From NCBI RefSeq assembly GCF_026427355.1, contig NZ_CP102664.1, positions 806,001-870,000 of the forward strand: 64,000 nt of DNA. Reading direction: 5' to 3'. A program made the translations under genes and the position numbers. A model generated the notes under the pieces. The model was not told the origin of the DNA. It saw only the letters and a program-made list of their open reading frames with translations, and did no database searches. Source of the stretch: Sphingobium sp. JS3065. GTDB taxonomy: Bacteria; Pseudomonadota; Alphaproteobacteria; Sphingomonadales; Sphingomonadaceae. Positions 39,245 to 59,401 of the stretch are shown piece by piece. How positions within the stretch are numbered: the stretch's first letter is position 1; the number at the start of each line of letters is the position of its first letter.

Positions 39245-39289
39245 TGGTGGACGCACTAGGGCTCGAACCTAGGACCCGCTGATTAAGAG
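39245..39289 (-). repeat. att-like repeat 1: 3' end of tRNA-Lys(CTT)
   Basis: 45 bases identical to 59357-59401. Read on the minus strand it runs from CTCTTAATCAGCGGGTCC through a full T-arm (CTAGG-TTCGAGC-CCTAG) to TGCGTCCACCA. The 5' half is not a normal tRNA: the anticodon stem partner is lost. However TGCGTCC at 39306-39312 can pair with the acceptor strand, so this may be a decayed 68-nt tRNA rather than a pure fragment. Confidence 0.85.
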
Positions 39290-39379: not shown

Positions 39380-41821
39380 TCAGAACTTATAGCGCAGCTC
39401 GAGCATATAGGTGCGCGGATCTCCCGGGATCAGCGTATTCACCTGATAGATTTCGCCAACCTGAAGCCCGCCGGTATAATAGACTTTGTTGAAGGCGTTC
39501 TTCAGGTTTGCGGTAAGCGACCAGCCGGCGGTTTCATCCTCCACGCCGACACGGAAATTCGCGAGCGTATAAGGAGCCATCCGCGTGCCCGCCGAGTTCG
39601 CCGAGCGGGGCGAGGTAAAGCTTTCGGATTGGTAATAGACGTCGCCATGCAGCGTGAACGCCAGGTTGCTGCTGCCCAAGGGCACGGTCACGTCGGCAAA
39701 AGCCGATCCATTATATTTCGGCGTGTTGGGCACGCGATCATACAATACAGGCCTGCCCAGTAGGGTCACATTGCCGTTGGTGAACTCCGCTTCAGTGTAG
39801 TTGAAACTGCCTCCAAGCGAGAGCCACTGCAGCGGCTTGACCTGCGCGTCGACCTCGGCTCCGTAGGTGCGCGCCTGGGGAACATTGACGGTCAATGCTG
39901 CCGGGCCGTTGTTGACGAGCGCGAAGCCCGCACGCTGGCTGTTCGCGATCCAGTTGTAGAACAGTGCAAGGCTGGCGCGAACCGGCCGCCCGCCGATCCG
40001 TCCATTGAACTTGGTGCCGAGCTCGGCATCTGTCACGCGCTCGGCGTCATAGCTGTCACCGCCGACCTGGGCGCTGCCGACAATGGGAGCGACGGCAGCG
40101 TTGAACCCGCCGCTTTTGTAGGCCCTGCGGCTATTGGCATAGATCAGCAGGCTTGGGTCCGCCTGATACTGGACGCCCAGGGTCCAGCTGAAATTCTCGA
40201 AAGTCCGGCTCTGGTCATAGTCGAAACCGGCCGGGGCCGGATCGCCCAGCGCAACTCGGAAGGAATCCTGCGGCTTGACATGCTTGGCGGCGGTTTCGCG
40301 CGTATAGCGTCCGCCGGCGGTCAGCGCGATGCCGCTCTCTCCCAAATGGTAGGTGCCCTGGGCATATCCGGCATAGGTACGGTTCGCGTTCTTGGTGGCG
40401 TTGCGCTGCTGGACGCCGCCGAAGACGACATCGAAGAAGGTCGAGGTCTGGTCGAAATAGGTAGACTCATATGAGTAAAAGCCGCCGAATACATATTCGA
40501 GACGCCCTTCGAGGGCTTTACCGAGAAGCTGCATCTCCGCCGAGAACTGCTCGATATCGCTTATCTGCGGTGCGGCTTCCGATCCGGTAACCGACAGGCC
40601 GTAGGGTGTACCATCGGAATCGGTGGCATTCTTCGACTTGATATTGACGTAACCGATAATGTTCTTGATCGCGATATCATCGGCGATATCGAACCGCGTG
40701 GTGTTGGTGACTACCGTATTGCGCGATCGATAGAAATTCGCGCCGTCCTGCGCCACCCTGAAGGGACCGCGGGCGTTTTGTTCGGCGAGCACCTGACTGA
40801 TTCCGCCAGCCGGATGCGCCGGATTGGCGAAATAGGCATTGTAGAAGGAAGCGACCATGGGATTGACCGGCGGACAGCCACCGGGAAATTGGGCGAAACC
40901 CTGGAGCGTGCATTGGCCGGTGAGGGCAGCGATCGGATTGGCGGTGCCGGCATAGAGAAACTGCGCGGGAATGAAGGGTGCGTCCGTGCCCGTGAACGGC
41001 ATCAGGCCGGAAATGACCGCCTCGGTATTCTCGCTGTCGATATGCGTGTAATCGGCAACGAGTTCGTTCGTGATGTTCGGACCTAGCTTTATGGAGAGGC
41101 TGGGGCGGAAGCCATAGCTTTCCTGGTCGCCTTCGCTGCCGCCGGTCAGGAGGTTGCGCTGGAACCCGTCACGCCCGCGATAGAAGCCGGCCACGCGCAG
41201 CATCACTTGATCGGCTGATAGCGGTGCGTTGATCGCGCCTTCGAGCTTGTACTGATCATAGTTGCCGTAGAGCGCGCTGACATAGCCACCAAATTCGTCC
41301 GTCGGCTTCTGCGTCGCATAGAGCAGGGCGCCGCCCGTTGCACTACGGCCGAACAGCGTGCCTTGCGGCCCCTTGAGCACCTGGACCGACGCCAGGTCAT
41401 AGAAAGTCGAAGCCCCGGCGAGCGAGCCGATCTGCACTTCATTGATATAAGGAAGGACGCCCGGGCGGCTGTTGCTGAAGGGATCCTGGGATTGCCCGCG
41501 CAGCGAGAAGTAGAGCTGATTGGACGACACGCCGCCGCGAACCTGCAGCCCCGGTGTGGCCTGGCGCAGGTCATATTCGGAAACGATATTCGCCTTTGCG
41601 AGCGTGTCCCCGGAAACTGCGGCGACAGCGACCGGGGTGCGTGACAGGCTCTCGTCGCGCCGCCGCGCGGTCACCATGATATCGGCTATTGCGCCATCGG
41701 TTTCTGCAGTGGTTGCCGGGGTGGCCGGGTGTCCGGCGTCCTGGTCCTGCGCCGCCGCCGAGCCGCTCCAGCAAACCGAAAACACAGATGCGAGCAGCGC
41801 AATCCGTACATTGTGGCGCAT
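39380..41821 (-). CDS. TonB-dependent receptor of the catabolic island
   Basis: 813 residues. Signal peptide (RIALLASVFSVCWSGSAAAQ), a plug with IADIMVTARRRDESLSRTPVAVAAVSG, LRQATPGLQVRGGVSSNQL and VLKGPQGTLFGRSATGGALLY, and a barrel ending in MLELRYKF. This branch (IMVTARR start) is abundant in sphingomonads in loci for degradation of plant, steroid or aromatic compounds, and less so for iron. Its island context suggests uptake of the hydrophobic substrate degraded by the neighbours. It is transcribed leftward, away from the regulator. Confidence 0.93.
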   Translation of the reverse strand: MRHNVRIALLASVFSVCWSGSAAAQDQDAGHPATPATTAETDGAIADIMVTARRRDESLSRTPVAVAAVSGDTLAKANIVSEYDLRQATPGLQVRGGVSSNQLYFSLRGQSQDPFSNSRPGVLPYINEVQIGSLAGASTFYDLASVQVLKGPQGTLFGRSATGGALLYATQKPTDEFGGYVSALYGNYDQYKLEGAINAPLSADQVMLRVAGFYRGRDGFQRNLLTGGSEGDQESYGFRPSLSIKLGPNITNELVADYTHIDSENTEAVISGLMPFTGTDAPFIPAQFLYAGTANPIAALTGQCTLQGFAQFPGGCPPVNPMVASFYNAYFANPAHPAGGISQVLAEQNARGPFRVAQDGANFYRSRNTVVTNTTRFDIADDIAIKNIIGYVNIKSKNATDSDGTPYGLSVTGSEAAPQISDIEQFSAEMQLLGKALEGRLEYVFGGFYSYESTYFDQTSTFFDVVFGGVQQRNATKNANRTYAGYAQGTYHLGESGIALTAGGRYTRETAAKHVKPQDSFRVALGDPAPAGFDYDQSRTFENFSWTLGVQYQADPSLLIYANSRRAYKSGGFNAAVAPIVGSAQVGGDSYDAERVTDAELGTKFNGRIGGRPVRASLALFYNWIANSQRAGFALVNNGPAALTVNVPQARTYGAEVDAQVKPLQWLSLGGSFNYTEAEFTNGNVTLLGRPVLYDRVPNTPKYNGSAFADVTVPLGSSNLAFTLHGDVYYQSESFTSPRSANSAGTRMAPYTLANFRVGVEDETAGWSLTANLKNAFNKVYYTGGLQVGEIYQVNTLIPGDPRTYMLELRYKF

Positions 41822-42019
41822 TTTAACCTCTCCTCTTTCTGTCGATCACCGCCGATTCTTTCGGTCGCTTTGCAAAAGAGCGAGTGAGTGGCGCTATCGA
41901 TCTGAAGTCGATCTGCCGACCAAGGGAGGTTGGAACAACCGTTGTCGATTACAAAATCATCGACCTTGACTTACACGGCATGTCGTTGGGCAAGCGGTGG
42001 TCACAGTCGCCTGCTGGCC

Positions 42020-42655
42020 TCATGCGAGAAGCGCCGGAATCATGAAATCACTGATATAGGCGCTACGTTGCGCATCGTCGGTGGCCAGCGCATTGGGATG
42101 CGTTAGTAGCCAGAATTGCTGATAGGTAATCCAGCGCACTGCGCCATGGAATTCCAGGTCGGGACGTATGATTCCGGCATCGCGGTAGCGCTCCAGGATC
42201 GGCATCCAGATCGCCTCCAGCGTAGCGATGAGGTCGGAAGAATTCAGGGTGAGTTCCGCCATATAGGGCGCGACCCTGGGATCGAGGGCCTCATCGAAGA
42301 GCGGGAACGACCTGGCGGCGCGAAGCTGTGCCATGAAGATGTCGGTGAGAACAGCCGCGGACGGCGCGCGGGCGACAGCCTCGCGCATCGCGTCGGGATG
42401 CAGCTGCTCGATATGACGCACATAGACGCCGACCAGGAGAGCATCCTTGCTGCGGAAATATTTGTAGATGGTCTGCCGCGCGATGCCCGCCGCCCGCGCG
42501 ACATCATCCATGCTGAATTTGGCGACGGTGAAGCGCTGGATTACGGGCAATGCGGCCTGGAGGATCCGATCGCACATCTGCGCCCGAAGCGCCGGGGCGT
42601 TACCGGAGGTTTCGGGCACCGATCGATCGACAAGGGTGGTAATCTGCCGGCTCAT
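42020..42655 (-). CDS. TetR/AcrR-family repressor
   Basis: 211 residues. The N-terminal DNA-binding domain FTVAKFSMDDVARAAGIARQTIYKYFRSKDALLVGV is a textbook TetR helix-turn-helix; the C-terminal part is a variable ligand pocket. ATG 42655 overlaps the stop of the oxygenase gene by 4 nt, so both share a transcript and the regulator probably controls the oxygenase. A palindrome CGACAA-N10-TTGTCG in the promoter region to the right (44003-44024) is a candidate operator. Confidence 0.92.
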   Translation of the reverse strand: MSRQITTLVDRSVPETSGNAPALRAQMCDRILQAALPVIQRFTVAKFSMDDVARAAGIARQTIYKYFRSKDALLVGVYVRHIEQLHPDAMREAVARAPSAAVLTDIFMAQLRAARSFPLFDEALDPRVAPYMAELTLNSSDLIATLEAIWMPILERYRDAGIIRPDLEFHGAVRWITYQQFWLLTHPNALATDDAQRSAYISDFMIPALLA

Positions 42656-43959
42656 GGGTGGACGAGAATCTCTTTCGCGCGGGATTCGAATTTCTTCATG
42701 CCGTGGATGACGTCTTCCGGATCGGCAACTTCCGTCTCGCCCTTGCGCAGCCGGGTCGCCGCCCCGAAGGCATCGAGCGCGCGCAACGCCTTTTCCTCAT
42801 CGTTCCGCCCGGTCAGGAGCGATGCCCGGTCAAACAGAGCGACGAAGGGGCGCGCCGCCGGCACGAGATACCGCAGCCGGTTATTGGGTATCGCAAGCTG
42901 CTCGCAGATATCGTCCCCGGCCCAGGCCCGCATCAGGCCATAGGTGAGCCTCTTCTTCTGATTCACGGTCATGTGCTTCGCGATGAATGCGGGAATAACC
43001 TCATATCCCTCGATTTCCTCCTCGCACATATAGTCGCTCAACGCCTTCATCAATGCGCGGCACCCTTCGTCCGCCGGATGCTCGAGCAGCCGGATCAGTG
43101 CCGACTTGGCTTGCAGGTCCTGCCAATCGGTGAAGTTCGCTGCTTCGGGAATGCCCATGATATGCCCGATATAACGCCATAGGGCGGTGATGTCTTCGAT
43201 CTCCTGCGCGCTCAGGCCGACGCCGACCTTGCGGAGCGCGTTCACCACCGCCTCGCAGAACAGACAGCCCATGGTGTAGACGGAGTCGGTATTGCTGACG
43301 ACCATTCCCCAGTCCGCCCAGTCCCAATGCGGGCTGCGCGAGAGATGGTAGCGCACCGCGGCATGGATCCAGCGCACATTCATCGTTATGCGGAAACCGT
43401 CGCCGTTACGGCGCATACCGTCGGGCTTGGAGGAGCTTGCCGCCCAGCGCAGTGTCTCGACGAGGCGCTGTCCGGCTTGGCTGCGCTCGATCAGACGGCG
43501 GCTCAGCACCAGGGGCCTGGATCCGCCATAGGTGCGAAAGCCTGCTCCGATCGCACCATAGGCCAACGCCATGACAACCAGCTTACCAGACCGCCAGTAG
43601 GCGATGCTCCCGCGATGAAGCTGATCCCAGTCGACCCATGAAGGGGGATTGTCGACATCCGTGAAGAGCGCGATCAGCTCGGCTGGCGGATTGTCCACCG
43701 ATCCGATTCCATGGTTCACCGCCTGCTCGAAAATTTCCTTGGCGCGGGCGGCTCCGCCCTCTCCCTCGACCAGAGCCTTATAGGCCGCATAGCCCAGCTC
43801 GTCGCCGGTCTTGAAGTCCTCCACGATCACCTCGACCGCGTCCCGGCCGAATCGGCTGATGGCTTCCTCATAATTGACGGTCCGGCCGAGGGCGCGTCCG
43901 GGGCACAGATCGGCCGGAACATCGAGCCCGGCGGGGCGAGGCAGAGTGATCGCATTCAT
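42652..43959 (-). CDS. DUF2236 oxygenase (MpaB / latex-clearing-protein-like)
   Basis: 435 residues. The family core is recognisable: RITMNVRWIHAAVRYHL (residues 190-206) with the His expected to bind heme, then WADWGMVVSNTDSVYT and RYIGHIMGIPE. Characterised relatives are the rubber oxygenase Lcp, which cleaves double bonds of polyisoprene, and fungal MpaB, which cleaves the farnesyl chain in mycophenolic acid synthesis. No signal peptide is seen, so the enzyme is probably cytoplasmic. It is divergent from the acyl-CoA genes, consistent with a first oxidative cleavage that yields an aldehyde for the later steps. Confidence 0.8.
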   Translation of the reverse strand: MNAITLPRPAGLDVPADLCPGRALGRTVNYEEAISRFGRDAVEVIVEDFKTGDELGYAAYKALVEGEGGAARAKEIFEQAVNHGIGSVDNPPAELIALFTDVDNPPSWVDWDQLHRGSIAYWRSGKLVVMALAYGAIGAGFRTYGGSRPLVLSRRLIERSQAGQRLVETLRWAASSSKPDGMRRNGDGFRITMNVRWIHAAVRYHLSRSPHWDWADWGMVVSNTDSVYTMGCLFCEAVVNALRKVGVGLSAQEIEDITALWRYIGHIMGIPEAANFTDWQDLQAKSALIRLLEHPADEGCRALMKALSDYMCEEEIEGYEVIPAFIAKHMTVNQKKRLTYGLMRAWAGDDICEQLAIPNNRLRYLVPAARPFVALFDRASLLTGRNDEEKALRALDAFGAATRLRKGETEVADPEDVIHGMKKFESRAKEILVHP

Positions 43960-44002
43960 AGGTCATCCTCCAACATGCCGCCTTTGCAGCATCATCAATC
44001 GG

Positions 44003-44024
44003 CGACAAAATACCATACTTGTCG
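44003..44024. promoter_or_regulatory. Candidate operator in the divergent promoter region
   Basis: Palindrome CGACAA-N10-TTGTCG between the oxygenase and the first acyl-CoA dehydrogenase. A further half site TTTGTCGC (44025-44032) adjoins it. It lies 44 nt from the oxygenase start and 172 nt from the dehydrogenase start. Size and symmetry suit TetR binding. Confidence 0.45.
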
Positions 44025-44195
44025 TTTGTCGCAATCCTGTTTAAGATGCTCTTATGCGATGTTCCCCAGACAGCTGGAGAGCCGCGCGGTCGCCCGCAGC
44101 CCATTTTTTTGTCAGCCAGGGCTGTTGTTGGGGAGGGCAACTGGCCGATACTGCCCGCCAAACAGATATTCTCGGCAGATTGGGAGAGGCAAAAG

Positions 44196-45371: not shown

Positions 45372-45393
45372 CACGACATTTCAGGAGCAGGAC

Positions 45394-46161
45394 ATGGAGT
45401 TGGAAAACAAGGTCGCGATCATCACTGGCGGCGCGTCGGGGCTCGGGCGGGCGACCGCCGAAAAATTTCACGCGGCCGGCGCCAAAGTGGCGATCTTCGA
45501 CCTCAACGACGAAGCCGGCAACGCGCTGGCCGCGGCGCTGGGCGAAGGCGCGCTTTACCGCAATGTGAACGTCGCCGAAGAAGAAGGCGTGCAGGCAGCG
45601 ATCAGCGATGTCGTCGGCCAGTTCGGAAGAATCGACATCTGTTGCAATTTCGCTGGCATCGGCGGGGCGCAGCGGATTCTCGGCAAGGATGGCGTCTATC
45701 CCCTCGCCAAGTTCCGCGGCGTCATCGACGTCAATCTCGTAGGCACGTTCAATGTTCTCCGGCTTGCCGCCGAGCAGATGGCGAAAAACGAGCCTGATGC
45801 GTTCGGCCAGCGCGGGGTCGTCATCAATACCGCCTCGGTCGCGGCTTATGACGGCCAAATCGGGCAGATCGCCTACAGCGCGTCCAAGGCGGCGATCGTC
45901 GGCATGACGCTGACTGCGGCGCGGGATCTGTCTTCCTACGGCATTCGCGTCAACACCATCGTTCCGGGCCTGATCGATACGCCGCTGCTCGCCAAGCTGC
46001 CCCAAGCCGCCCGCGACGCGCTGGGACAGCAGGTGCTGTTCCCCAAGCGGCTCGGCCAGGCGGAGGAGATCGCTGCGACCGCCGCGTTCATCGTGGCAAG
46101 CGACTATCTCAACGCCGAATGCATCCGTCTCGATGGCGGCATCCGTATGCCGCCCAAGTGA
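45394..46161 (+). CDS. Short-chain dehydrogenase/reductase, 3-hydroxyacyl-CoA dehydrogenase type
   Basis: 255 residues. The cofactor motif ITGGASGLGRATAEKFHAAGAKVAIFDLND (Asp after the second strand, so NAD preferred), NFAGIGG, and the catalytic YSASK with upstream Ser (INTASVAAYD) are intact. The sequence resembles type-10 HSD enzymes that oxidise 3-hydroxyacyl-CoA with methyl branches. It would carry out the third step of beta-oxidation here. ATG 45394 follows AGGAG. Confidence 0.9.
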   Translation: MELENKVAIITGGASGLGRATAEKFHAAGAKVAIFDLNDEAGNALAAALGEGALYRNVNVAEEEGVQAAISDVVGQFGRIDICCNFAGIGGAQRILGKDGVYPLAKFRGVIDVNLVGTFNVLRLAAEQMAKNEPDAFGQRGVVINTASVAAYDGQIGQIAYSASKAAIVGMTLTAARDLSSYGIRVNTIVPGLIDTPLLAKLPQAARDALGQQVLFPKRLGQAEEIAATAAFIVASDYLNAECIRLDGGIRMPPK

Positions 46162-46184
46162 CAGGTCATCGACAGGAACCCGCC

Positions 46185-47336
46185 ATGAGCCCACTCAACG
46201 GCTATACCGTCATTGAGCTTGCCGGCATCGGTCCCGCGCCCATGGCCGGCATGATGCTGGCCGACATGGGCGCTGAGGTGATCCGGATCGAGCGCTCGAC
46301 AAGCGTGAGCGAACGGCGCGCGAAGGATGTGAGCCTGCGCGGCAAGAAGTCGGTTATGCTCGATCTCAAGGATCCGCGCGCGGTTCGTGCGCTGCTGCAG
46401 ATGATCGAGAGCGCCGACGTGCTGATCGACCCCTATCGGCCGCTCACCTGCGAGAAGCTCGGCATCGGACCCGACGAATGCCTGTCGCGCAATCCGAGGC
46501 TCGTATTCGCCAGGATGACCGGATGGGGCCAGCATGGACCCCAAGCGATGGCGGCGGGGCATGACATCAACTATATCGCGCTCACCGGCGCGCTGCATGC
46601 CATCGGGCGTGCCGGTGAGAGGCCGGTGGTGCCGCTCAACCTCGTCGGCGATATGGGGGGCGGTGGCACACTCCTGGTCGTGGGTATATTGGCTGCGCTT
46701 CTGGAGACCCGCGGGTCGGGTAAGGGACAGGTCGTGGATTGCGCGATGGTCGACGGCGCGATCCAGCAGATGTGGATGTTCCAGGGCATGCTCGCCGCCG
46801 GCGCATGGGACGACGGCGCGCGGGAAGCCAATCTCCTCGATGGCGGAGCCTATTTCTACGACTGCTACGAATGTGCCGACGGCCGCTATATCAGCCTGGG
46901 GGCGATCGAGCCGCAATTCCACGCGACCATGATCACCCTTCTGGGTCTCGATCCCGGTGACTTTGCGGACCAGCACGACAAGACGCAATGGCCAGCACTC
47001 AAGCAGGCCATAGCCGCTGCCGTGCGCACGAAGACGCGAGACGAATGGTGCCGTATCATGGAGGGAACCGACGCTTGTTTCGCGCCCGTCCTGCGCATGT
47101 CGGAGGCGCCCGCGCATCCGGCCAACGTCGCGCGCGAATGCTTTGTCGAGATCGACGGTGTCGTGCAGGCGGTGCCCGCGCCGCGCTTCAGCCGGACGCC
47201 ATCGCGGGTCCGTCGCGGTGCTCCGGTCCCGGGCGAGCATACGGCACAGGTGCTCGCGGCGATGGGGATCGCGCCCTGCGATGTCGCGGCGCTCGCAAAA
47301 GGCGTGGGTACGGGAGGATCTGCCGATGCTCCCTGA
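46185..47336 (+). CDS. Alpha-methylacyl-CoA racemase (CaiB/BaiF superfamily)
   Basis: 383 residues. The catalytic pair of the racemase branch is kept: His126 in AGHDINYIALTGALHAIGR and Asp156 in VPLNLVGDMGGGG, the same positions as in the mycobacterial enzyme. CoA-transferases of the superfamily lack this pair. It inverts the 2-methyl centre of an acyl-CoA so that dehydrogenases, which take only the S form, can proceed. This strongly points to a methyl-branched substrate (isoprenoid or sterol side chain). Its end overlaps the next gene by 11 nt. Confidence 0.93.
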   Translation: MSPLNGYTVIELAGIGPAPMAGMMLADMGAEVIRIERSTSVSERRAKDVSLRGKKSVMLDLKDPRAVRALLQMIESADVLIDPYRPLTCEKLGIGPDECLSRNPRLVFARMTGWGQHGPQAMAAGHDINYIALTGALHAIGRAGERPVVPLNLVGDMGGGGTLLVVGILAALLETRGSGKGQVVDCAMVDGAIQQMWMFQGMLAAGAWDDGAREANLLDGGAYFYDCYECADGRYISLGAIEPQFHATMITLLGLDPGDFADQHDKTQWPALKQAIAAAVRTKTRDEWCRIMEGTDACFAPVLRMSEAPAHPANVARECFVEIDGVVQAVPAPRFSRTPSRVRRGAPVPGEHTAQVLAAMGIAPCDVAALAKGVGTGGSADAP

Positions 47337-48117
47337 AGAACCCGGGCAGACCGTGTCGGTCGAAATCCAGGACGCCGTGGCCATCGTCACCCTTGATCGT
47401 CCCGATGCGCAGAACGCCTTTAATACGGCGTTGCGCGGCGATCTGTCGCAGGCCATTCGAGCGGTAGAGGAAAACACGGCTGTCAGAGCCGTTGTTCTGA
47501 CCGGCCGCGGACGCAATTTCAGCGCCGGGGCCGATCTCAACGACAGGGACCGGAAAGACCCTTCGGTCGAGCGGATGCTGAACGAGGAATATACCCCCAT
47601 GCTGCTGGCGATCATGCGGTCGGCCAAGCCATGGGTCGGTGCAATCAATGGGGCCGCCGCCGGTATCGGGTCGTCCTTCGCGCTCGCCTGCGACCTGTCG
47701 GTTATGGGCGAAAGCGCCTGCCTCTACCAGGCATTTGTGGCGATCGGTCTGATTCCGGATGGAGGGGCCTCCTGGCATCTGGTGCGAACGCTTGGCTTCA
47801 AGCGCGCCTTCGAGATGATGATCGCCGGAGAACGGATTTCGGCGGAACGATGCCTGGCGCTCGGCCTCACCAATCGCGTCGTCCCGGATGCGCTATTGCT
47901 CGACCAAGGCCTTGCCCTCGCGAGGCAGCTTGCGGTCAAGGCGCCCCTCGCGGTGGCGCGCACCAAGGCAGCAGTACGTTTTTCGGCCGATCATCCGATC
48001 GAAGCGGTCATGCCGTTCGAAGCCCGTTTGCAGCAGGCGTGTACGGATAGCGAAGACTTCAAGGAAGGTGTGGCCGCCTTCCGCGCCAAACGCGCCGCCA
48101 CGTTCCTCGGACTGTGA
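47326..48117 (+). CDS. Crotonase-family enoyl-CoA hydratase/isomerase, PaaG-like
   Basis: 263 residues. The oxyanion motif FSAGADLND and GAAAGIGSSFALACDLSV are present. The active-site segment reads FVAIGLIPDGGASW, which matches the isomerase-type members (PaaG: Asp in GLIPD) more than the classical hydratase with Glu. So it may shift a double bond (delta-3 to delta-2), as needed when unsaturated isoprenoid chains are degraded. GGAGG precedes ATG 47326. Confidence 0.88.
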   Translation: MLPEEPGQTVSVEIQDAVAIVTLDRPDAQNAFNTALRGDLSQAIRAVEENTAVRAVVLTGRGRNFSAGADLNDRDRKDPSVERMLNEEYTPMLLAIMRSAKPWVGAINGAAAGIGSSFALACDLSVMGESACLYQAFVAIGLIPDGGASWHLVRTLGFKRAFEMMIAGERISAERCLALGLTNRVVPDALLLDQGLALARQLAVKAPLAVARTKAAVRFSADHPIEAVMPFEARLQQACTDSEDFKEGVAAFRAKRAATFLGL

Positions 48118-48148
48118 ACCGCAACAAGCCCACGCGAAGGTATCGACC

Positions 48149-49309
48149 ATGGATTTCTCGTTAAGCTCCGATCAACAGGCACTTCAGGAAACCGCCAGGC
48201 AGTTCGCCCAGCGCGAACTCCCGACGATCGCGCGCGACCTGGAGGAGCGCAATATTCCTCCTTCGCGCGAGCTCGTGCGGCGATATGCCGAGCTTGGCTT
48301 TCTCGGCATCAACGTCGCGCCCGAATATGGCGGGCTTGGCCTTGGTAATCTCGAAGCACTGCTCGTCGTGGAGGAGTTCGCGAAGATTTCCTCGGCGGTC
48401 GCCTTTCCGGTCTTCGAATCCTGTGTCGGCCCGGTGCGTGCCATCGAGCATTTCGGCACCGAGGCCCTGAAGCGGAGGATCATTCCCAAGGTCTGCGGTG
48501 GCGAAGCCATTGTCGCGGTCTCGATGTCCGAGCCCGACGCCGGCAGCGCGCTCACCGACCTGCGCGCGCGCGGCGAGATCACGGCCGATGCCGTCATCCT
48601 CAACGGCAGCAAGCGCTGGTGTTCGGGCGGCGGCCATGCCGATGGCTATGTCGTCTATTGCCGGCTCTCCGATGCACCGGGGGCAAACGGTATCGGCGCG
48701 GTGTTCGTCGACAAGGGCACGCCGGGAATGACCTACGGCCCCAATGAGAGTCTGATGGGTTTCCGCGGCGTTCCGTCGAGCGACATCCATTTCGACAATG
48801 CCGCGGTTCCCCTCGACAACATCGTTGTCCCCGCCGGCGGCTTCAAGCAGCTGATGGAGGCCTTCGATCTCGAGCGCTGCGGCAATGCGACCATGGCGCT
48901 GGGCCAGGCTTCCGGCGCGCTCGAGGAGGTGCTCGCCTATGTCCAGGAACGCCGGCAGTTCGGTAAGCCCATCATCGACTTCCAGGCCGTCCAGCTGCGC
49001 ATCGCCGAGATGCAGATGCGCGTCGACGCCGCGCGCCTGCTGATCTACCGCGCGGCGGCCAACGCGCAGATGGGCCTTCCTTCGATGCTCGAATCCTCGC
49101 TCGCCAAATGCTTTGCCAATGAGATCGCACGCGAAGTGACCGGCCATGCGGTCCAGCTGATGGGCGCCTATGGCTATTCGCGCGAGTTCCCGATGGAGCG
49201 GCGGCTGCGCGATGCCTGGGGATGGGGCATCGCGGGCGGCGCGGTCGATATCCAGAAGGTCAATATCGCGAGCGCTTTGATCGGCCGGCGTTTCGATCAG
49301 CGGCGGTGA
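48149..49309 (+). CDS. Acyl-CoA dehydrogenase, second copy
   Basis: 386 residues. It has the dehydrogenase motifs GINVAPEYGGLG, SMSEPDAGSALTDLRA, VQLMGAYGYSREFPMERRLRDAW. The usual YEGT segment is altered to IAGGAVDIQK; a Glu is available in DLERCGNATMALG. It is divergent from the copy at 44196, so the two probably act on chain lengths or branching of different kinds. It starts 31 nt after the crotonase gene and abuts the nitroreductase gene (2 nt gap). Confidence 0.9.
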   Translation: MDFSLSSDQQALQETARQFAQRELPTIARDLEERNIPPSRELVRRYAELGFLGINVAPEYGGLGLGNLEALLVVEEFAKISSAVAFPVFESCVGPVRAIEHFGTEALKRRIIPKVCGGEAIVAVSMSEPDAGSALTDLRARGEITADAVILNGSKRWCSGGGHADGYVVYCRLSDAPGANGIGAVFVDKGTPGMTYGPNESLMGFRGVPSSDIHFDNAAVPLDNIVVPAGGFKQLMEAFDLERCGNATMALGQASGALEEVLAYVQERRQFGKPIIDFQAVQLRIAEMQMRVDAARLLIYRAAANAQMGLPSMLESSLAKCFANEIAREVTGHAVQLMGAYGYSREFPMERRLRDAWGWGIAGGAVDIQKVNIASALIGRRFDQRR

Positions 49310-49311
49310 CG

Positions 49312-49980
49312 ATGGACGTGCGCGAAGCGCTTCATGCGCGCCAGTCGACCCGCGGCTTCCTCGACAGGCCGGTCGCCCCGGACCTCCTGGCAAGCATATT
49401 TGAGGCGGCGCAGCGGGCGCCGTCCAACTGCAATACCCAGCCCTGGCAGACGATTGTCGTGTCGGGGAAGGCACGAGACCAGCTGGCGCGCCTGCTCGCC
49501 GAGCATCTCGCCGGCGGCGCATCCCCGGCGCCCGACTTCGGCCCATCGGTGTTGCCGGCCTTTGAAGGTGTCTATCGGGACCGGCAGCATGCCGCTGCGG
49601 CCGAGCTTTACGCCGCAATGGGGATCGAGCGCGGCGACAAGGTCGCCCGCGCGCAGGCCTCCCAGCGAAACTGGGCCTTTTTCGGTGCCCCGCATGTGGC
49701 GCTGTTCACCATGCAGCGGGGGCTGGGTTTGATGGGCGCTGTCGATGTCGGCGGCTATGCCCATGGCCTGGCGCTGATGATGACGGCTAGCGGCATAGGC
49801 AGTTGCCCCCAGGCATCGCTTGCCTATTTCCCGGCGCCCATACGCGAATATCTGGATATTCCGGTGAACATGGGCATATTGTTCGGCATGTCCTTCGGCT
49901 ATCCTGATCCCGACGCTCCATCCAATCGTGCCCGGACCGGACGCGCGGCGGTCATAGATGCCGTGCGGCTCGTGGAATGA
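49312..49980 (+). CDS. FMN-dependent nitroreductase-family oxidoreductase
   Basis: 222 residues. The FMN site is visible as ALHARQSTRGFLDRP and APSNCNTQPWQTIVVSG, with GIGSCPQASL near the C-terminus. Family members reduce nitro groups, quinones or enones. Within a beta-oxidation cluster it could reduce an enone, or a 2,4-dienoyl-type intermediate, but nothing in the sequence fixes the substrate. It is translationally adjacent to the dehydrogenase before it (ATG two bases after the stop). Confidence 0.85.
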   Translation: MDVREALHARQSTRGFLDRPVAPDLLASIFEAAQRAPSNCNTQPWQTIVVSGKARDQLARLLAEHLAGGASPAPDFGPSVLPAFEGVYRDRQHAAAAELYAAMGIERGDKVARAQASQRNWAFFGAPHVALFTMQRGLGLMGAVDVGGYAHGLALMMTASGIGSCPQASLAYFPAPIREYLDIPVNMGILFGMSFGYPDPDAPSNRARTGRAAVIDAVRLVE

Positions 49981-50007
49981 GGAAAGCCGACGGCCGATAG
50001 CCGCGTC

Positions 50008-51006
50008 ATGCGTGAGACATCCGTTCCGATCCGTCTTGTCAGGGCCGTTCTGAAACATTGCGGCGACTTCGAACTCGACCAGCGTGAGTTGCTCGCGCAG
50101 GCGGGCATCTCCCCCCGCCTCGTCGAAGAAGAGGCGGCGCGGGTATCAATCGAGCGGTTCGCGCAACTGCAGGTCGTGACCATCCTCGCGATGCAGGATG
50201 AAGGCCTGGGCTATCTGACGCGCCGCCTGCCGGTGGGCACATGGTCGATGATGTGTCACGCCACGCGGAACGCACGTAGTTTTCGCGAGGCGCTCAACCG
50301 CTACTGCCGGTTTTTTACCATTCTCGACATGGGATTCACGCTGACGCCGGTCGAGGACGGAGACTCGGCGGGCGTTCGGTTCACGCATGATCCAGGCTGG
50401 CCTGTCGACCTCTTCATTAGCGAACGCGCGCTCTTCAAATGCAGCCGCTACAGTTCCTGGCTCATGCAGGAGGATATCGTCATCACTGCTGTCGCGTTGT
50501 CAGGCGCCGATCCCGGCCACGGAGACGAGTATCGTTTCCTGTTCAACGGCGCCCCGGTGACCTTCGACCTGCCATTTGACGAGATCCGTTTTTCCGCGAG
50601 CTATCTCGATCGCGCCATCGCGCTCGACGACCAGACCGTACGGCGCTTCCTTCGCGCGCCGACACTGATGCTTCTGAGCGAAGAATATCGGAATACCAGC
50701 TGGACGAACCGGGTGCGCAGGGAACTGCGCAAGGACATGCCGCACCTCAAAGGCATGGAAGAGATCGCCGACGCACTTGCCGTCCACCCGCAGACCTTGC
50801 GCCGGCGTCTGGCCGACGAGGGCCAGTCGTTCAAGCAGATCATCGACGATCTCCATCGCGATACTGCCCTCTATTATCTGGGAAGGCGCGGCATGAGCGT
50901 CGAGGAAGTCGCCTGGCGCGCGGGTTTCGCCGAGACCAGCACCTTCATTCGGGCCTTCAAGCGATGGACGGCGATGACCCCTTACGCGTATCGCAAGGGC
51001 CTCTAG
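50008..51006 (+). CDS. AraC-family transcriptional regulator (OruR-like)
   Basis: 332 residues. The N-terminal ligand domain is of the Arabinose_bd type (RLPVGTWSMMCHATRNARSFREALNRYCRFF); the C-terminus has two helix-turn-helix units (IADALAVHPQTLRRRLADEGQSFKQI, VEEVAWRAGFAETSTFIRAFKRW). Such regulators often activate lipid or steroid catabolic genes. It sits between the two groups of catabolic genes and could activate both. Confidence 0.92.
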   Translation: MRETSVPIRLVRAVLKHCGDFELDQRELLAQAGISPRLVEEEAARVSIERFAQLQVVTILAMQDEGLGYLTRRLPVGTWSMMCHATRNARSFREALNRYCRFFTILDMGFTLTPVEDGDSAGVRFTHDPGWPVDLFISERALFKCSRYSSWLMQEDIVITAVALSGADPGHGDEYRFLFNGAPVTFDLPFDEIRFSASYLDRAIALDDQTVRRFLRAPTLMLLSEEYRNTSWTNRVRRELRKDMPHLKGMEEIADALAVHPQTLRRRLADEGQSFKQIIDDLHRDTALYYLGRRGMSVEEVAWRAGFAETSTFIRAFKRWTAMTPYAYRKGL

Positions 51007-51170
51007 CGGCGGCAGGGTCATGCTTCGACTCCGCGCTGTTATTTGAGGTCGGTATTTTTGTCGGGCGCGACCATTGTTGCCGGCGGTTATCGGCGGCATC
51101 CCCGTGAAAACAGACCGATGGAGCGGAGCACTTCTCCGCGCCGACCGTCCGCACGAATGGGAGAGCGAGA

Positions 51171-51935
51171 TTGACTGCAGATGTTCTTACCCGCCGCGAA
51201 GATGGCATCCTGGTGGTAACGATCAACCGTCCCGATGCCCGGAATGCCGCCAACAAGGCGGTCGCAGAAGGCATTGCCGCGGCTGCCGATACGCTCGATG
51301 GCGATGACAGCCTGCGGGTCGGTATCCTGACGGGCGCCGGCGGCACATTCTGTTCGGGCATGGATCTCAAGGCCTTCGTGACCGGGGAGCGTCCGGTCAT
51401 CGAAGGACGAGGATTTTGCGGGATCGTCCAGCGTCCGCCGCTCAAGCCCCTGATCGCCGCCGTCGAAGGCTATGCGCTTGCCGGCGGTTTCGAGCTTGCG
51501 ATCGCCTGCGACCTGATCGTGGCCGCCGCCAACAGCAAATTCGGCATTCCCGAAGCGAAACGCGGCCTAGTCGCCAATGCAGGCGGGCTCTTGCGTTTGC
51601 CGCGTCAGATCCCGCCGCGCATCGCCAAGGAACTGGCATTGACAGGCGAGTTCCTGAGCGCGGAGCGCGCGCTTCAATATGGCCTCATCAATGCCGTGGC
51701 CGAGCCGGGTGGGGCGCTTGATCTCGCCCTCGATCTTGCGCGCAAGATATCGGCCAATGCGCCGCTCGCGATCGCGGCCAGCAAGCGGGTCATCGACGAG
51801 TCGCAGGACTGGTCGACCGAGGAGATGTTCGATCGGCAGGCGAAGATCAGCCGGCCGATCTTCGACAGTGCCGATGCGATCGAGGGGGCCAAGGCCTTTG
51901 CCGAAAAGCGCGCGCCGAACTGGAAAGGTATCTGA
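51171..51935 (+). CDS. Enoyl-CoA hydratase (crotonase family), hydratase type
   Basis: 254 residues. TTG 51171 is the start (MTADVLTRREDG), with GGGAGAG upstream. Motifs: FCSGMDLKAF, GYALAGGFELAIACDLIVAA and FGIPEAKRGLVANAGGLLRLP, where the Glu of IPEAK is the hydratase residue. It complements the PaaG-like crotonase: this one hydrates the double bond. It heads a four-gene run with the thiolase (2 nt), aldehyde dehydrogenase and CoA ligase. Confidence 0.9.
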   Translation: MTADVLTRREDGILVVTINRPDARNAANKAVAEGIAAAADTLDGDDSLRVGILTGAGGTFCSGMDLKAFVTGERPVIEGRGFCGIVQRPPLKPLIAAVEGYALAGGFELAIACDLIVAAANSKFGIPEAKRGLVANAGGLLRLPRQIPPRIAKELALTGEFLSAERALQYGLINAVAEPGGALDLALDLARKISANAPLAIAASKRVIDESQDWSTEEMFDRQAKISRPIFDSADAIEGAKAFAEKRAPNWKGI

Positions 51936-51937
51936 AA

Positions 51938-53188
51938 ATGTCCAAGGCATCGGCCAATCAGGCCCTGATCATCGATGCATGCCGCACGCCGCGGGGAATC
52001 GGCCGCGCTGGCAAGGGCGCGCTGTCGGGCCTGCATCCCCAGCATCTCACCTCGTCCGTACTGCGCGCGATCGCCGAACGGAATGGCATCGACACCGGAG
52101 AGGTTGACGACGTGATCTGGGGAACCAGCTCCCAGATCGGTGAGCAGTCTGGCGATCTGGGGCGCATGGGCGCGCTGGACGCGGGATATGACGTGCGCGC
52201 CAGCGGCGTGACCCTGAGCCGCTTCTGCGGTTCCGGCATCACGTCTGTCGCGCTTGCGGCCTCGTCCATCGCTGCCGGTCATGAGGATCTGATGATCGGC
52301 GGCGGCACCGAGATGATGTCCAAATACGGCCCCGGCACCGCCGTGAGCGCGGTGTTCATGGACCGCGACAATCTCCGGCTGCGCGCCTTGCATCCGCAGT
52401 CCAACCAGGGCGTGTGCGCCGATGCGATCGCGACGCTGGAGGGTATTGGCCGGGAGGAGCTCGATGCGCTGGCCGCGCTCAGCCAGCAGCGGGCTGACGT
52501 CGCGATCCGCGAAGGACGGTTCGACCGATCGCTCGTGCCGGTCTATCATGAGGACGGCACGCTCGCGCTCGATCATGAGGAATATCCGCGCCCGTCGACC
52601 ACGGCTGAAACCCTTGCCGAGCTCAAGCCTGCCTTCGCAGCGCTTGCCGACTCACCGCTGGATGGGGATGGCACGACCTATCGCAGCCTGATCCTGAATA
52701 AATTTCCGGACCTAGCGATCAATCATGTCCACCATGCAGGCAATTCCTCTGGCGTCGTCGATGGCGCCGCGGCGGTGCTACTGGCGTCGCGGGACTTTGC
52801 CGACGCCCATGGACTAAAGCCGCGCGCCCGGGTCGTGACCGCCGTCAATGTCGGCGACTCGCCCACACTCATGCTCAACGCGCCGGTTCCCGCGGCCCGC
52901 AAGGCACTTGCCCGAGCAGGATTGTCCCCGGAAGACATCGACCTGTTCGAAGTCAATGAGGCGTTTGCCGTGGTGACCGAGAAGTTTATCCGCGACCTCG
53001 ATCTCGATCGCGAGAAGGTCAATGTGAACGGCGGCGCCATAGCACTCGGTCATCCGATCGGCGCAACCGGCGCGATCCTGATCGGCACGCTGCTCGACGA
53101 ACTCGAGCGGCGCGACAAACAGTTCGGGCTGGTCACCATGTGCGCGGCGGGCGGCATGGCGCCGGCGATCATCATCGAACGCATCTAG
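51938..53188 (+). CDS. Acetyl-CoA acyltransferase (thiolase)
   Basis: 416 residues. The nucleophile is Cys97 in VTLSRFCGSGITSV; NEAFAVV, the His in GGAIALGHPIGATGAIL, and the second cysteine in MCAAGGMAP are all conserved. It cleaves 3-ketoacyl-CoA to release acetyl- or propionyl-CoA, the last step of each cycle. The long insertion is of the degradative FadA type rather than the biosynthetic one. Confidence 0.94.
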   Translation: MSKASANQALIIDACRTPRGIGRAGKGALSGLHPQHLTSSVLRAIAERNGIDTGEVDDVIWGTSSQIGEQSGDLGRMGALDAGYDVRASGVTLSRFCGSGITSVALAASSIAAGHEDLMIGGGTEMMSKYGPGTAVSAVFMDRDNLRLRALHPQSNQGVCADAIATLEGIGREELDALAALSQQRADVAIREGRFDRSLVPVYHEDGTLALDHEEYPRPSTTAETLAELKPAFAALADSPLDGDGTTYRSLILNKFPDLAINHVHHAGNSSGVVDGAAAVLLASRDFADAHGLKPRARVVTAVNVGDSPTLMLNAPVPAARKALARAGLSPEDIDLFEVNEAFAVVTEKFIRDLDLDREKVNVNGGAIALGHPIGATGAILIGTLLDELERRDKQFGLVTMCAAGGMAPAIIIERI

Positions 53189-53206
53189 ACCAACAGGGAA
53201 GAGACA

Positions 53207-54628
53207 GTGGCTCCTTCATCCGAATTTCCGATGCTGATCGACGGTTCGCTGGTTGCCGGCGCAGCGAGCATGCCCGTCGTAAATCCCGCAACGGGTCAGG
53301 TCTTCACCGAGGCGCCTGATGCCTCCGCCGAGCAGCTCGATCTTGTGATTACGGCCGCGAAGCGTGCCTTTCCGGCATGGTCAGAGCGGCCGATCGCCGA
53401 GCGGCAAGGCTTGCTGATCAAGGCAGCCGAGGCGATCACCGCCCATACGGACGAACTGACCGCGCTCCTCACCCGCGAACAGGGCAAGCCCCTGGCGGCC
53501 GCCACCGCCGAAATCCAGGCGTCCCTAGGCTGGTTCCACTATTTCGCCCAGATGACGCCGCCCGTTCTCGTCAGCGAAGACAGCGAGACGCGGCGGGTTG
53601 AGACCCGCTACGTCCCCCTTGGCGTCGTCTGCGCAATCTCGCCGTGGAATTTTCCGGTCATGCTATCCTGCTGGAAGATCGTCCCGGCGCTGCTCGCGGG
53701 CAATACGGTGGTGTTGAAACCTTCGCCCTTCACGCCCCTCACGATGCTTCGCATCGGAGCCCTGCTCAAGGACGTGTTTCCGGCCGGCGTGCTCAACATC
53801 ATCACCGGTGGTGATACGCTTGGTCCGAAGATGACAGCGCACCCCGGCTTCGCCAAGATCAGCTTCACCGGCTCGACCGCCACCGGCAAGCTCGTGATGC
53901 AAAGCGCCTCGGAGACGATGAAGCGCATCACGCTCGAACTGGGCGGCAACGATGCCGCTATCATCATGCCGGACATTGACCTGGATGCGGTTGCGCTCAA
54001 GATCTTCATGGGCGCCTTCTATAACAGCGCGCAGGTCTGTACTGCGACCAAGCGGCTCTACGTTCATGAAGCAATCTATGATGCGCTGCGCGATCGCTTT
54101 GTGGCGCTCGCCCAGGCGATGAAGCTCGGGGACGGCGCGGAGGAAGGCACTGTCTTTGGGCCGATTCAGAATGAACGGCAGTATCGCCGGGTCAAGGCGC
54201 TGATCGAGGAGGCGCGGCAGCAGGGTCTGACCATCATCGAAGGGCCGCAAGGACCGCAAGGGGGCGGCTATTTCGTCCCGATCACCATCGTCGACAATCC
54301 GCCGGACGATGCCAGGGTCGTTACCGAAGAGGCCTTCGGTCCCGTCCTCCCGCTGCTCAAGTTCAGCAATGTCGACGATGCGATCCGCCGGGCCAATGCG
54401 AGCGAGTTCGGACTGGCCGGCGCCGTATGGTCTCGCGATGTGCACAAGGCCGTCGAGATCGCCAGCCGCCTGGAAACCGGGACGGTCTGGATCAACGAGA
54501 ACCTCTATCTGCCGCCCACCGCACCCTTCGCCGGTCACAAGCAATCGGGGCTCGGGGTCGAAAACGGCATGGACGGGCTGTTGCAATATATGGATCCCAA
54601 GACGATCTATATTCCCAAGGCAGCCTGA
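53207..54628 (+). CDS. NAD(P)-dependent aldehyde dehydrogenase
   Basis: 473 residues. Motifs: ISPWNFPVML, the cofactor site SFTGSTATGKLVMQ, catalytic Glu in ITLELGGNDAAI and catalytic Cys in NSAQVCTATKR. Start GTG 53207 after AGGGAAGAG. It oxidises an aldehyde to the acid; within this island it fits the product of the oxygenase cleavage, giving the substrate for the CoA ligase encoded next. Confidence 0.93.
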   Translation: MAPSSEFPMLIDGSLVAGAASMPVVNPATGQVFTEAPDASAEQLDLVITAAKRAFPAWSERPIAERQGLLIKAAEAITAHTDELTALLTREQGKPLAAATAEIQASLGWFHYFAQMTPPVLVSEDSETRRVETRYVPLGVVCAISPWNFPVMLSCWKIVPALLAGNTVVLKPSPFTPLTMLRIGALLKDVFPAGVLNIITGGDTLGPKMTAHPGFAKISFTGSTATGKLVMQSASETMKRITLELGGNDAAIIMPDIDLDAVALKIFMGAFYNSAQVCTATKRLYVHEAIYDALRDRFVALAQAMKLGDGAEEGTVFGPIQNERQYRRVKALIEEARQQGLTIIEGPQGPQGGGYFVPITIVDNPPDDARVVTEEAFGPVLPLLKFSNVDDAIRRANASEFGLAGAVWSRDVHKAVEIASRLETGTVWINENLYLPPTAPFAGHKQSGLGVENGMDGLLQYMDPKTIYIPKAA

Positions 54629-54670
54629 GGATCAGGCGATGCCCAACTTCAGCGAGTGCGAGAACTGAAG

Positions 54671-56215
54671 ATGCAACATCCGGCACAGCATGCCAGAGAG
54701 ATGCCCGACAAACCGGCCTATATCATGGCCGGCACGGGGAAGGTCGTGACCTATGGCGAGTTGGATCGCAGGTCCACCCAGATCGCCCGGCTGTTTCGCA
54801 GCCTCGGATTGGGAGCGGGCGACCATATTGCGCTGCTTCTCCCCAACGACGAGCATTTCATGCAGATCTGTTGGGGCGCGCAGCGATCGGGGCTGATCTA
54901 CACGCCAATCAGCACGCATCTCAAGCGGGACGAGATCGGCTATATCCTTCAGAACAGCGACGCGGCGCTGCTGGTGACGAGCGCGGCGTTTGCGCCGCTC
55001 ATATGCGAGGGCGAGCAAGCCGGCATCGCATTGCCACATCTTTTCCTGGTCGACGGGGCAGCGCCGGGGTTTGCCTCATGGCCGGAAGCGATCGCCGCCC
55101 AGTCCGACCAGCCCATTGCCGACGAGCAGGCCGGCGCCCGCATGGTCTATACCTCGGGGACGACCGGGCAGCCGAAGGGCGTGCTGTCCGACTTCACGCC
55201 CGGGACGCCGATCGGCACAATGCCCGCCAAGCTAGCCGGCATGGCGAAGATATTCGGCATCGATGAGCAGACGGTGTTGCTCTCTCCGGCGCCGCTCTAT
55301 CATTCGGCACCACTGGGCTTCGTCCACATCGTGATGCATCTGGGCGGAACAGCGGTGATCCTCGACAAGTTCGACGCCGAAGCCGCGCTTCGTGCCATCG
55401 AAACCTACCGGGTCACGCACAGCCAATGGGTTCCGATCATGTTCCACCGGATGCTGGCTCTGGAGGAGCGCGTACGCGAGTCCTACGATCTCTCCAGCCA
55501 TCGCGTCGCGATCCATGCCGCCGCCCCATGCCCGGTCGAGCTCAAGCGTCGCATGATCGCGTGGTGGGGCCCGATCCTCGCGGAATATTACGCCTCGACC
55601 GAGTCAACGGGGTTCACGGCGATCGACACGCCAGAATGGCTTGCCCACCCCGGTTCCGTCGGCCGCGCGAAGGGCTCGACGATCCATATCCTCGATGACG
55701 ATGGCGAGGAACTGCCGTCCGGCGAGGTCGGCATGGTCTTCTTCGAGGCGGCAAAGGGGCGCTTTGCCTACTACAAGGATCCCGACAAGACCGCCGCGTC
55801 CTATAACGACCAGGGCTGGGCGAGCGTCGGCGATCTCGGCTATGTCGACGAAGAGGGCTATCTCTATCTCACCGACCGCAAGAGCTTCATGATCATCTCA
55901 GGCGGAGTGAACATCTACCCGCAGGAGATCGAGAATCTGTTGCTGGGGCATCCCAAGGTCGCCGACGTCGCCGTCATCGGCATTCCCAATGAAGAATTCG
56001 GCGAAGAGGTGAAGGCGGTGGTCCAGCCGCGTAGCTGGGAAGAGGCCGGGGCCGACCTGGCTCTCGAATTGACCGTGTGGTGCCGTGACCGGCTCGCTAA
56101 TCTCAAAGTGCCTAGATCGTTCGATTTTGAACGCGAGTTGCCGCGGCAGGAAAATGGAAAGCTCTACAAGAAACTGATCATCGATCACTATCTTCGGAAT
56201 CATGCAAGAAGTTAA
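54671..56215 (+). CDS. Acyl-CoA synthetase (AMP-forming)
   Basis: 514 residues. P-loop MVYTSGTTGQPKGVLSD, YASTESTGFTAID, GDLGYVDEEGYLYLTDRKSFMIISGG and the catalytic Lys in RQENGKLYKK are present. It activates a carboxylic acid to its CoA thioester, the entry step to the beta-oxidation genes. ATG 54671 is chosen because a GTG 15 nt earlier has no ribosome site. It is the last intact gene before the IS remnants. Confidence 0.93.
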   Translation: MQHPAQHAREMPDKPAYIMAGTGKVVTYGELDRRSTQIARLFRSLGLGAGDHIALLLPNDEHFMQICWGAQRSGLIYTPISTHLKRDEIGYILQNSDAALLVTSAAFAPLICEGEQAGIALPHLFLVDGAAPGFASWPEAIAAQSDQPIADEQAGARMVYTSGTTGQPKGVLSDFTPGTPIGTMPAKLAGMAKIFGIDEQTVLLSPAPLYHSAPLGFVHIVMHLGGTAVILDKFDAEAALRAIETYRVTHSQWVPIMFHRMLALEERVRESYDLSSHRVAIHAAAPCPVELKRRMIAWWGPILAEYYASTESTGFTAIDTPEWLAHPGSVGRAKGSTIHILDDDGEELPSGEVGMVFFEAAKGRFAYYKDPDKTAASYNDQGWASVGDLGYVDEEGYLYLTDRKSFMIISGGVNIYPQEIENLLLGHPKVADVAVIGIPNEEFGEEVKAVVQPRSWEEAGADLALELTVWCRDRLANLKVPRSFDFERELPRQENGKLYKKLIIDHYLRNHARS

Positions 56216-58187: not shown

Positions 58188-58197
58188 AGCGGCGGCC

Positions 58198-59060: not shown

Positions 59061-59356
59061 GGGATAAACTCCTGGTGAGGGGTTGGTCTTCAGCAACCAA
59101 ATCCTCCCACCAGGGGGTCATTCTCGCCAGCCCCCAGGCACCAGTCGAGCGTCAGCGAGTTCGTTCAATCCACTTATTGGGTCTGGACCCTAAGCACAGC
59201 TTTGGCAGATTTTGACGAAGAGTTTGCGAAGGACCAAGTCCACAGTGCGGACATCGTGAGTCCTCACGCTGCTACCTAGGGAGCTACCTAGCGCGAAATG
59301 AAGTGGAGACCCGAACGCCAATGTTGTCTGTAACACATTGGTATATGTCTGAAAAA
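59061..59356. other. Gap between the IS91 recombinase and the att repeat
   Basis: About 300 bases. The part near 59110 is probably the end of the IS91-type element. No gene seen. Confidence 0.4.
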
Positions 59357-59401
59357 TGGTGGACGCACTAGGGCTCGAACCTAGGACCCGCTGATTAAGA
59401 G
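59357..59401 (-). repeat. att-like repeat 2: 3' end of tRNA-Lys(CTT)
   Basis: Identical over 45 bases to 39245-39289. To its right the sequence (AAATTGGATTCAACG) bears no resemblance to a tRNA 5' half, so this is an attachment-site fragment, not a gene. Confidence 0.88.

Follow-up and report, generated by a model that had tools for sequence, protein, structure and literature searches.

What does an oxygenase of the MpaB/Lcp type do in a sphingomonad, next to the enzymes of an acyl-CoA pathway, and does this gene set travel together? The question is raised by a block of 14 open genes at 39380-56215 of a 64,000-nt stretch of the Sphingobium sp. JS3065 genome (NZ_CP102664.1, 806,001 to 870,000; this whole stretch is termed the window, and coordinates are window positions). 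An earlier note, made from the DNA letters alone, had read the block as a candidate mobile island for the degradation of isoprenoid chains. What is new here is a Lcp/MpaB-type oxygenase, probably intracellular, that is linked with a nearly complete set of branched-chain degradation genes and has moved with it as a unit. This observation is stronger than the note had claimed; the isoprenoid interpretation is plausible.

Three genes of the block lie on the minus strand and 11 on the plus strand, as follows (percentages are identities to counterparts in other genomes and loci described below).

39380..41821, minus strand: TonB-dependent receptor of 813 aa (PF00593, 115.7 bits; PF07715; 81% in genome G1566)
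42020..42655, minus strand: TetR-family regulator (PF00440; 56% in locus L002, 52% in L003, 50% in L010)
42652..43959, minus strand: MpaB/Lcp-type haem oxygenase of 435 aa, as judged from Pfam (PF09995, DUF2236), fold and haem-site residues
44196..45371, plus strand: acyl-CoA dehydrogenase 1 (ACAD1), LCAD-like (Pfam; top PDB relatives 2pg0 and the mitochondrial long-chain acyl-CoA dehydrogenase 8w0t)
45394..46161, plus strand: SDR, candidate 3-hydroxyacyl-CoA dehydrogenase (PF00106)
46185..47336, plus strand: alpha-methylacyl-CoA racemase (AMACR/MCR; PF02515; 1x74, E 4e-115; H126, D156)
47326..48117, plus strand: crotonase 1, PaaG/isomerase-like (PF00378; PRK05981 and PaaG models, both under cut-off)
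48149..49309, plus strand: acyl-CoA dehydrogenase 2 (ACAD2; Pfam; 82% in Hydrocarboniphaga)
49312..49980, plus strand: nitroreductase-family flavoprotein (NTR; PF00881; NfnB 2wzv, E 1e-35; conserved near MpaB)
50008..51006, plus strand: AraC-family regulator with Arabinose_bd domain (PF12625, PF12833)
51171..51935, plus strand: crotonase 2, enoyl-CoA hydratase type (PRK08252, 403.6 bits against a cut-off of 282)
51938..53188, plus strand: acyl-CoA thiolase (PRK06025, 728.8 bits against a cut-off of 568)
53207..54628, plus strand: aldehyde dehydrogenase (ALDH; best model PRK13473, 434 bits, with 0/25 listed NCBIfam models reaching cut-off)
54656..56215, plus strand: acyl-CoA ligase, FadD4-like (FadD4 model, 620 bits, under the cut-off of 850)

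The oxygenase and TetR genes share a 4-bp overlap, and the plus-strand row begins 236 bp from the oxygenase gene with ACAD1. Since the intergenic spacing within this row is short (-11 to 31 bp), except for 164 bp downstream of the AraC gene, the row is likely to form one or two operons. Each enzyme class that had been named in the earlier note was recovered by Pfam/NCBIfam searches as an open frame on the given strand; its gene list had left out the TetR protein, the nitroreductase and the AraC-type regulator.

The proposed kinship of the oxygenase with Lcp and MpaB is borne out by its match to PF09995 MPAB_Lcp_cat (56.7 bits vs a gathering cut-off of 23) and by a fold that matches Lcp over nearly the whole chain, N- and C-terminal parts included, at 19% identity, so that the Lcp part of a structural comparison suggested in the note (against Lcp and MpaB) came out positive. 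Lcp and t-anethole oxygenase (TAO; 8s1j) are the closest relatives listed in the fold comparison. The proximal His, the Arg and the Thr at the haem are common to the oxygenase and LcpK30: Arg165 aligns to LcpK30 Arg164 and is present in 81/82 alignment rows (1 gap), and the proximal His199 aligns to LcpK30 His198 and is present in 82/82. From fold and haem-site residues we infer that the enzyme binds haem. Neither a twin Arg nor a hydrophobic stretch is evident by eye in its N-terminus (MNAITLPRPAGLDVPADL), and the enzyme is probably cytoplasmic. It is encoded by the sole PF09995 gene of the host genome.

The best structural relatives of the racemase are MCR and FAR racemases (E 4e-115 to 3e-104), followed by CoA transferases as the next families (E 1e-36). 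It retains the motifs AGHDINYI (His126) and NLVGDMGG (Asp156), which we take to hold the catalytic residues in MCR numbering, and its earlier assignment as an AMACR with catalytic His/Asp stands (1x74, E 4e-115; both residues in the aligned motifs). The host also encodes a second AMACR (54%), which adjoins a nitroreductase (40%) without MpaB at C5:8001-28000 of a 148.6-kb contig (L085), in a further catabolic cluster where the neighbours are acyl-CoA dehydrogenases, an amidohydrolase, a nitronate monooxygenase/FabK-like gene and an MFS gene.

A search for the same gene set in other genomes, as the note had advised, returned the whole block in a second genome of the genus (G1566), 13/14 genes in a Hydrocarboniphaga metagenome-assembled genome and partial sets in Actinomycetota. 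The block is transferable as a unit, since G1566 holds all of it colinear elsewhere on its chromosome and Hydrocarboniphaga holds 13/14 genes. The G1566 copy is covered by a single colinear 16.9-kb alignment at 80.3% DNA identity, spanning window 39384-56193, so that the block limits drawn earlier approximate the transferable unit; its proteins are 77-95% identical to their window counterparts, and it does not sit at the tRNA-Lys site used here. The Hydrocarboniphaga genes are rearranged in order and 52-82% identical, the missing one being a close receptor, and this genome is 1/85 of its order with an oxygenase match at E 1e-100. At E 1e-60 the oxygenase is matched in 2/94 genomes of the genus (own and G1566) and in 1/396 genomes of the order sample (own). 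Actinobacterial loci include those of Antrihabitans (L003) and of a Rhodococcus sp. USK10 plasmid (L010; AMACR 54%, MpaB 70%), and in more distant ones MpaB is mostly 36-42% identical. Matches at E 1e-70 were found in 19/331 genomes of the family of Antrihabitans (Antrihabitans counted), and at E 1e-120 in 3/397 of the order sample and 2/396 of the phylum sample, Antrihabitans being in both. About 13 kb before its block, G1566 also carries a partial paralogous set (C1:654001-694000; L126/L123; ACAD1 83%, AMACR 64%, ACAD2 84%), beyond which lie a MaoC-type hydratase, a Thiolase_C_1 protein and a GMC oxidoreductase.

Gene linkage was counted in 18 core 20-kb stretches round MpaB genes from 16 genomes of the family of Antrihabitans, and two control sets served for comparison: 3 stretches round other PF09995 genes, all in G397, and 19 stretches placed arbitrarily in 11 of these genomes. 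Limits were 35% identity and E 1e-20, and counts are given in the order core, other PF09995, arbitrary; the 18 core loci are related to each other, and a cluster may be cut off at the end of its 20-kb stretch. AMACR was linked in 13/18, 0/3 and 0/19, NTR in 14/18, 0/3 and 0/19, ACAD1 in 14/18, 0/3 and 2/19, ECH1 in 12/18, 0/3 and 0/19, and thiolase in 7/18, 0/3 and 1/19. Fisher values against the arbitrary stretches (AMACR 2e-6, NTR 5e-7) are overstated since the loci are related. Of the arbitrary stretches, L070 turned out to be a beta-oxidation cluster; its AMACR match of 29% is under the limit. Companions of the actinobacterial loci were an FMO/Baeyer-Villiger-like oxygenase (13/18, 0/3, 1/19; named from a Pfam FMO-like match and a PtlE model far under cut-off), an alpha/beta hydrolase (15/18, 0/3, 0/19), a fused double TetR (17/18, 0/3, 0/19), a FadD11-like ligase (12/18, 0/3, 0/19; model under cut-off), a YrbE-like gene (8/18, 1/3, 1/19; also in L010, L013 and L014) and two Mce-like proteins (6/18 each; 0/3 and 1/3; 0/19 each; also in L010), the YrbE and Mce names having been assigned by reading L003. 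Among five loci outside the 18, AMACR occurs in four (L002, L010, L013, L014) and NTR in three (L002, L013, L014).

The oxygenase keeps its linkage with acyl-CoA enzymes across Alpha- and Gammaproteobacteria and Actinomycetota. Chance clustering is rejected on the colinear G1566 copy, the 13/14 genes of Hydrocarboniphaga and the actinobacterial linkage counts. A second MpaB type, 41-42% identical to that of the window and with other neighbours, was also met (L044, L045, L043:3910-5316), in three genomes that hold the AMACR-linked type as well. A maximum-likelihood tree of 79 sequences, with midpoint rooting only, places the five proteobacterial rows and protein P0007 in a supported group (100/96) whose sister includes Antrihabitans, Rhodococcus, Gordonia and Haloechinothrix; both sit within a wider set that is actinobacterial as far as its members are named. 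Because P0007 falls in the group, the proteobacterial rows alone do not make up one side of a branch. The topology fits a transfer from Actinomycetota to Proteobacteria, followed by whole-block transfer among Proteobacteria.

How the block came to lie at its present position can be read from its borders.

39245..39289: left direct repeat, 3' half of tRNA-Lys(CTT), island boundary (45-bp exact repeat)
57001..58274, minus strand: IS91-like transposase, open reading frames (ORFs) overlapping in two frames (family by reading)
58404..59096, minus strand: XerC-like tyrosine recombinase ORF, between the repeats (family by reading)
59357..59401: right direct repeat, tRNA-Lys 3' half (45-bp exact repeat)
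59579..60982, plus strand: tyrosine integrase ORF, directly outside the right repeat (family by reading)

The repeats are 20,112 bp apart and flank the 14 genes and the IS91-like element, which is apparently a decayed copy. Colinearity with six genomes of the same genus stops at 39153 (5/6) or 39289 (1/6), and in the four of these covered by a tRNA scan the tRNA-Lys(CTT) is intact at the same site, as two tandem genes in 3/4 and as one gene in 1/4. Genome G1539 holds other DNA at the same tRNA-Lys site, and beside its tRNA-Lys the integrase start region (59351-59765) recurs at 99.8% identity. Right of 59357, the 116 kb beyond the window yielded neither a third repeat copy nor a tRNA, and the far end of the element was not located. 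The tRNA-Lys(CTT) site is an insertion hotspot, and the window carries two truncated copies of the tRNA. The island proposed in the note has the marks of a tRNA-integrated one, with 45-bp tRNA-Lys repeats at both ends, intact tRNAs in relatives and an integrase nearby. A GH10 glycoside hydrolase at 22724-24343 of the window seems unrelated to the block.

What might the block degrade? It is somewhat probable, in our judgement, that it forms a single catabolic regulon, whose substrate would be hydrophobic, methyl-branched and unsaturated, of the isoprenoid type. The TonB receptor would import the compound, and the cytoplasmic MpaB/Lcp-type enzyme, with O2, would split a C=C bond to an aldehyde and a ketone, by analogy with LcpK30, fungal MpaB and Nro1. 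The aldehyde dehydrogenase would then yield an acid and the FadD4-like ligase its CoA ester, and beta-oxidation could proceed via two acyl-CoA dehydrogenases, hydratase, SDR and thiolase (the families are established, their order is presumed), with the PaaG-like crotonase moving double bonds. NTR may reduce enoyl- or dienoyl-CoA, leaving the alpha-methyl centre in a mixed or wrong configuration for AMACR to epimerise, so that dehydrogenation could continue; that NTR and AMACR travel together would follow from such a step. The TetR and AraC proteins would sense substrate or intermediate. An isoprenoid is preferred because the chains cut by the relatives LcpK30, fungal MpaB and Nro1 are isoprenoids or dienes, because AMACR reportedly cannot be dispensed with for polyisoprene and for methyl-branched isoprenoids (work cited in PMC8538451 and PMC9108482) and because the actinobacterial companion genes suit a ketone product.

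Several findings weigh against the isoprenoid regulon. At the oxygenase, identity to Lcp is only 19%, Glu168 replaces the Lcp distal Lys167 in 82/82 rows, and the alignment is gapped where the Lcp catalytic base Glu148 falls, although the distal Lys is reported as conserved in just 59% of Lcps. Among the companions, the NTR-AMACR pair of host contig C5 occurs without MpaB, so NTR and AMACR do not depend on the oxygenase. At 35% identity, AMACR is missing in 5/18 core loci (L044, L045, L047, L059, L060) and NTR in 4/18 (L044, L045, L046, L060); L044 and L045 are second copies, whose genomes also hold the AMACR-linked L054 and L057. The Antrihabitans locus has MpaB (68%) with neither AMACR nor NTR in 21 kb, and the Rhodococcus plasmid has AMACR and no NTR. 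Linkage of ALDH (2/18, 0/3, 1/19) and of the CoA ligase (0/18, 0/3, 0/19) is low, the Hydrocarboniphaga receptor is not conserved (31% identity over just 226 residues), and an Old-Yellow-type dienoyl-CoA reductase was absent among the 14 genes in Pfam/NCBIfam searches. The idea that the actinobacterial set is a close copy of the block is rejected on the ALDH and ligase counts. Of the isoprenoid degradation proposed in the note, then, the Lcp/MpaB fold, the haem-site residues, a real AMACR, one island block and conserved linkage have held, and the isoprenoid chain stays a putative substrate.

Part of the same evidence can be turned towards other substrates. A steroid or triterpenoid whose unsaturated side chain (e.g. 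delta-22, delta-24) is shortened by the oxygenase to an aldehyde and then by side-chain beta-oxidation, while genes elsewhere degrade the rings, is a real if unlikely possibility. It draws on two tandem dehydrogenases in most actinobacterial loci and on points that also count against an isoprenoid, namely Mce-type uptake genes in some of these loci, a type linked to sterol uptake (PMC6678751), and three full-length KstD-like genes on host contig C2, all under the curated cut-off, one of them flanked by paired acyl-CoA dehydrogenases, crotonases, a thiolase and a sulfatase. Ring-degradation genes are, however, absent among the 14 block genes, and the KstD model matches 14/14 control genomes, over cut-off in none, so that KstD-like genes are no proof of steroid use. 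The KstD-like cluster at C2:971001-991000 (L099) has an IclR regulator too and possibly serves steroid-type degradation.

A further reading takes the PF09995 protein for a haem oxidase whose reaction is not C=C cleavage, set in a branched-chain acyl-CoA pathway that is ordinary in other respects. It would suit the invariant Glu in place of the Lcp distal Lys (82/82 rows) and the MpaB-free NTR-AMACR pair of the host; with LcpK30, fungal MpaB and Nro1 all described as C=C cleavers, it is quite improbable. Cleavage of an aryl-alkene of the phenylpropene kind, which would yield an aromatic aldehyde and make the block one of aromatic catabolism, takes its case from the related fold of the aryl-alkene cleaver TAO (8s1j), also a point against the isoprenoid regulon, and appears very improbable. 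Rubber is an unlikely substrate, as the lack of an evident secretion signal in the product of the host's only PF09995 gene would put long polymers out of reach (RoxA/RoxB were not searched for). The acyclic terpene utilisation (Atu/Liu) route has a geranyl-CoA-type biotin carboxylase in its cluster and is rejected, no carboxylase being found among the 14 genes; PF01039 has four matches elsewhere in the host genome, two of them strong.

If the isoprenoid regulon is carried further, one arrives at a widespread, horizontally transferred "intracellular ozonolysis", of which the block would be one form and in which a cytoplasmic Lcp-like haem dioxygenase would open the internal double bonds of isoprenoids that are squalene-like or otherwise linear, NTR would be a new type of dienoyl-/enoyl-CoA reductase paired with AMACR, and the actinobacterial Baeyer-Villiger oxygenase and hydrolase would dispose of the ketone half. 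We consider this extension distinctly doubtful. If true, it would supply genes for the cleavage of squalene to geranylacetone by strain Y-11 (a 1975 paper cited in PMC4149027), the case to which the literature on squalene cleavage led; the accessible part of PMC4149027 names no gene for it.

Across Alpha- and Gammaproteobacteria and Actinomycetota, one PF09995 branch is tied to a conserved set of partners, and its substrate class thereby becomes open to test by growth and gene deletion. As of 2018, no sequenced Gram-negative was said to have Lcp (PMC6311187). A probably cytoplasmic Lcp relative on a transferable proteobacterial block changes where the chemistry may be sought, for isoprenoids, sterols and perhaps synthetic rubbers, and the pairing of NTR with AMACR points to a reduction/epimerisation step that has so far gone unrecognised.

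Among known systems, LcpK30 and the actinobacterial rubber pathway (lcp-oxiAB, mcr, beta-oxidation) share with the block the fold, the haem Arg/His/Thr, the aldehyde-acid-CoA logic and a racemase, which is reported as a requirement of the rubber pathway. Here, however, an ALDH stands in place of oxiAB, oxygenase and beta-oxidation genes lie in one block, and the oxygenase is 19% identical to LcpK30, has Glu for the distal Lys and shows no secretion signal evident by eye. Fungal MpaB/MpaB' of mycophenolic acid synthesis belong to the same Pfam family and cleave a prenyl-chain C=C bond to an acid (PMC12724181), whereas MpaB is fungal, bound to the endoplasmic reticulum and biosynthetic; the comparison made here is by family and description. 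Nro1, the nitrile rubber oxygenase of Gordonia sp. J1A, is likewise of the MpaB family, with proposed C=C cleavage and a Lcp-like predicted structure, but, compared here by description, is membrane-bound and has Lys at the distal position in its authors' alignment (PMC12724181); the word racemase is absent from that paper, where oxygenases that contain haem and cleave C=C bonds are credited to Purwani 2024. TAO of Stenotrophomonas maltophilia (8s1j), termed a flavoprotein in 2013 (PMC3774712), shares a related fold and alkene cleavage. In the literature searched, most subscription journals being outside its scope, no cluster uniting an MpaB-family oxygenase, AMACR and a nitroreductase was described; within that range the combination in a Gram-negative is undescribed, as the earlier note had held, but actinobacteria hold related clusters. 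The nearest precedent in this literature is a Streptomyces scaffold on which an alpha-methylacyl-CoA racemase, a TetR gene, lcp2 and an MpaB-family gene occur together (PMC9108482).

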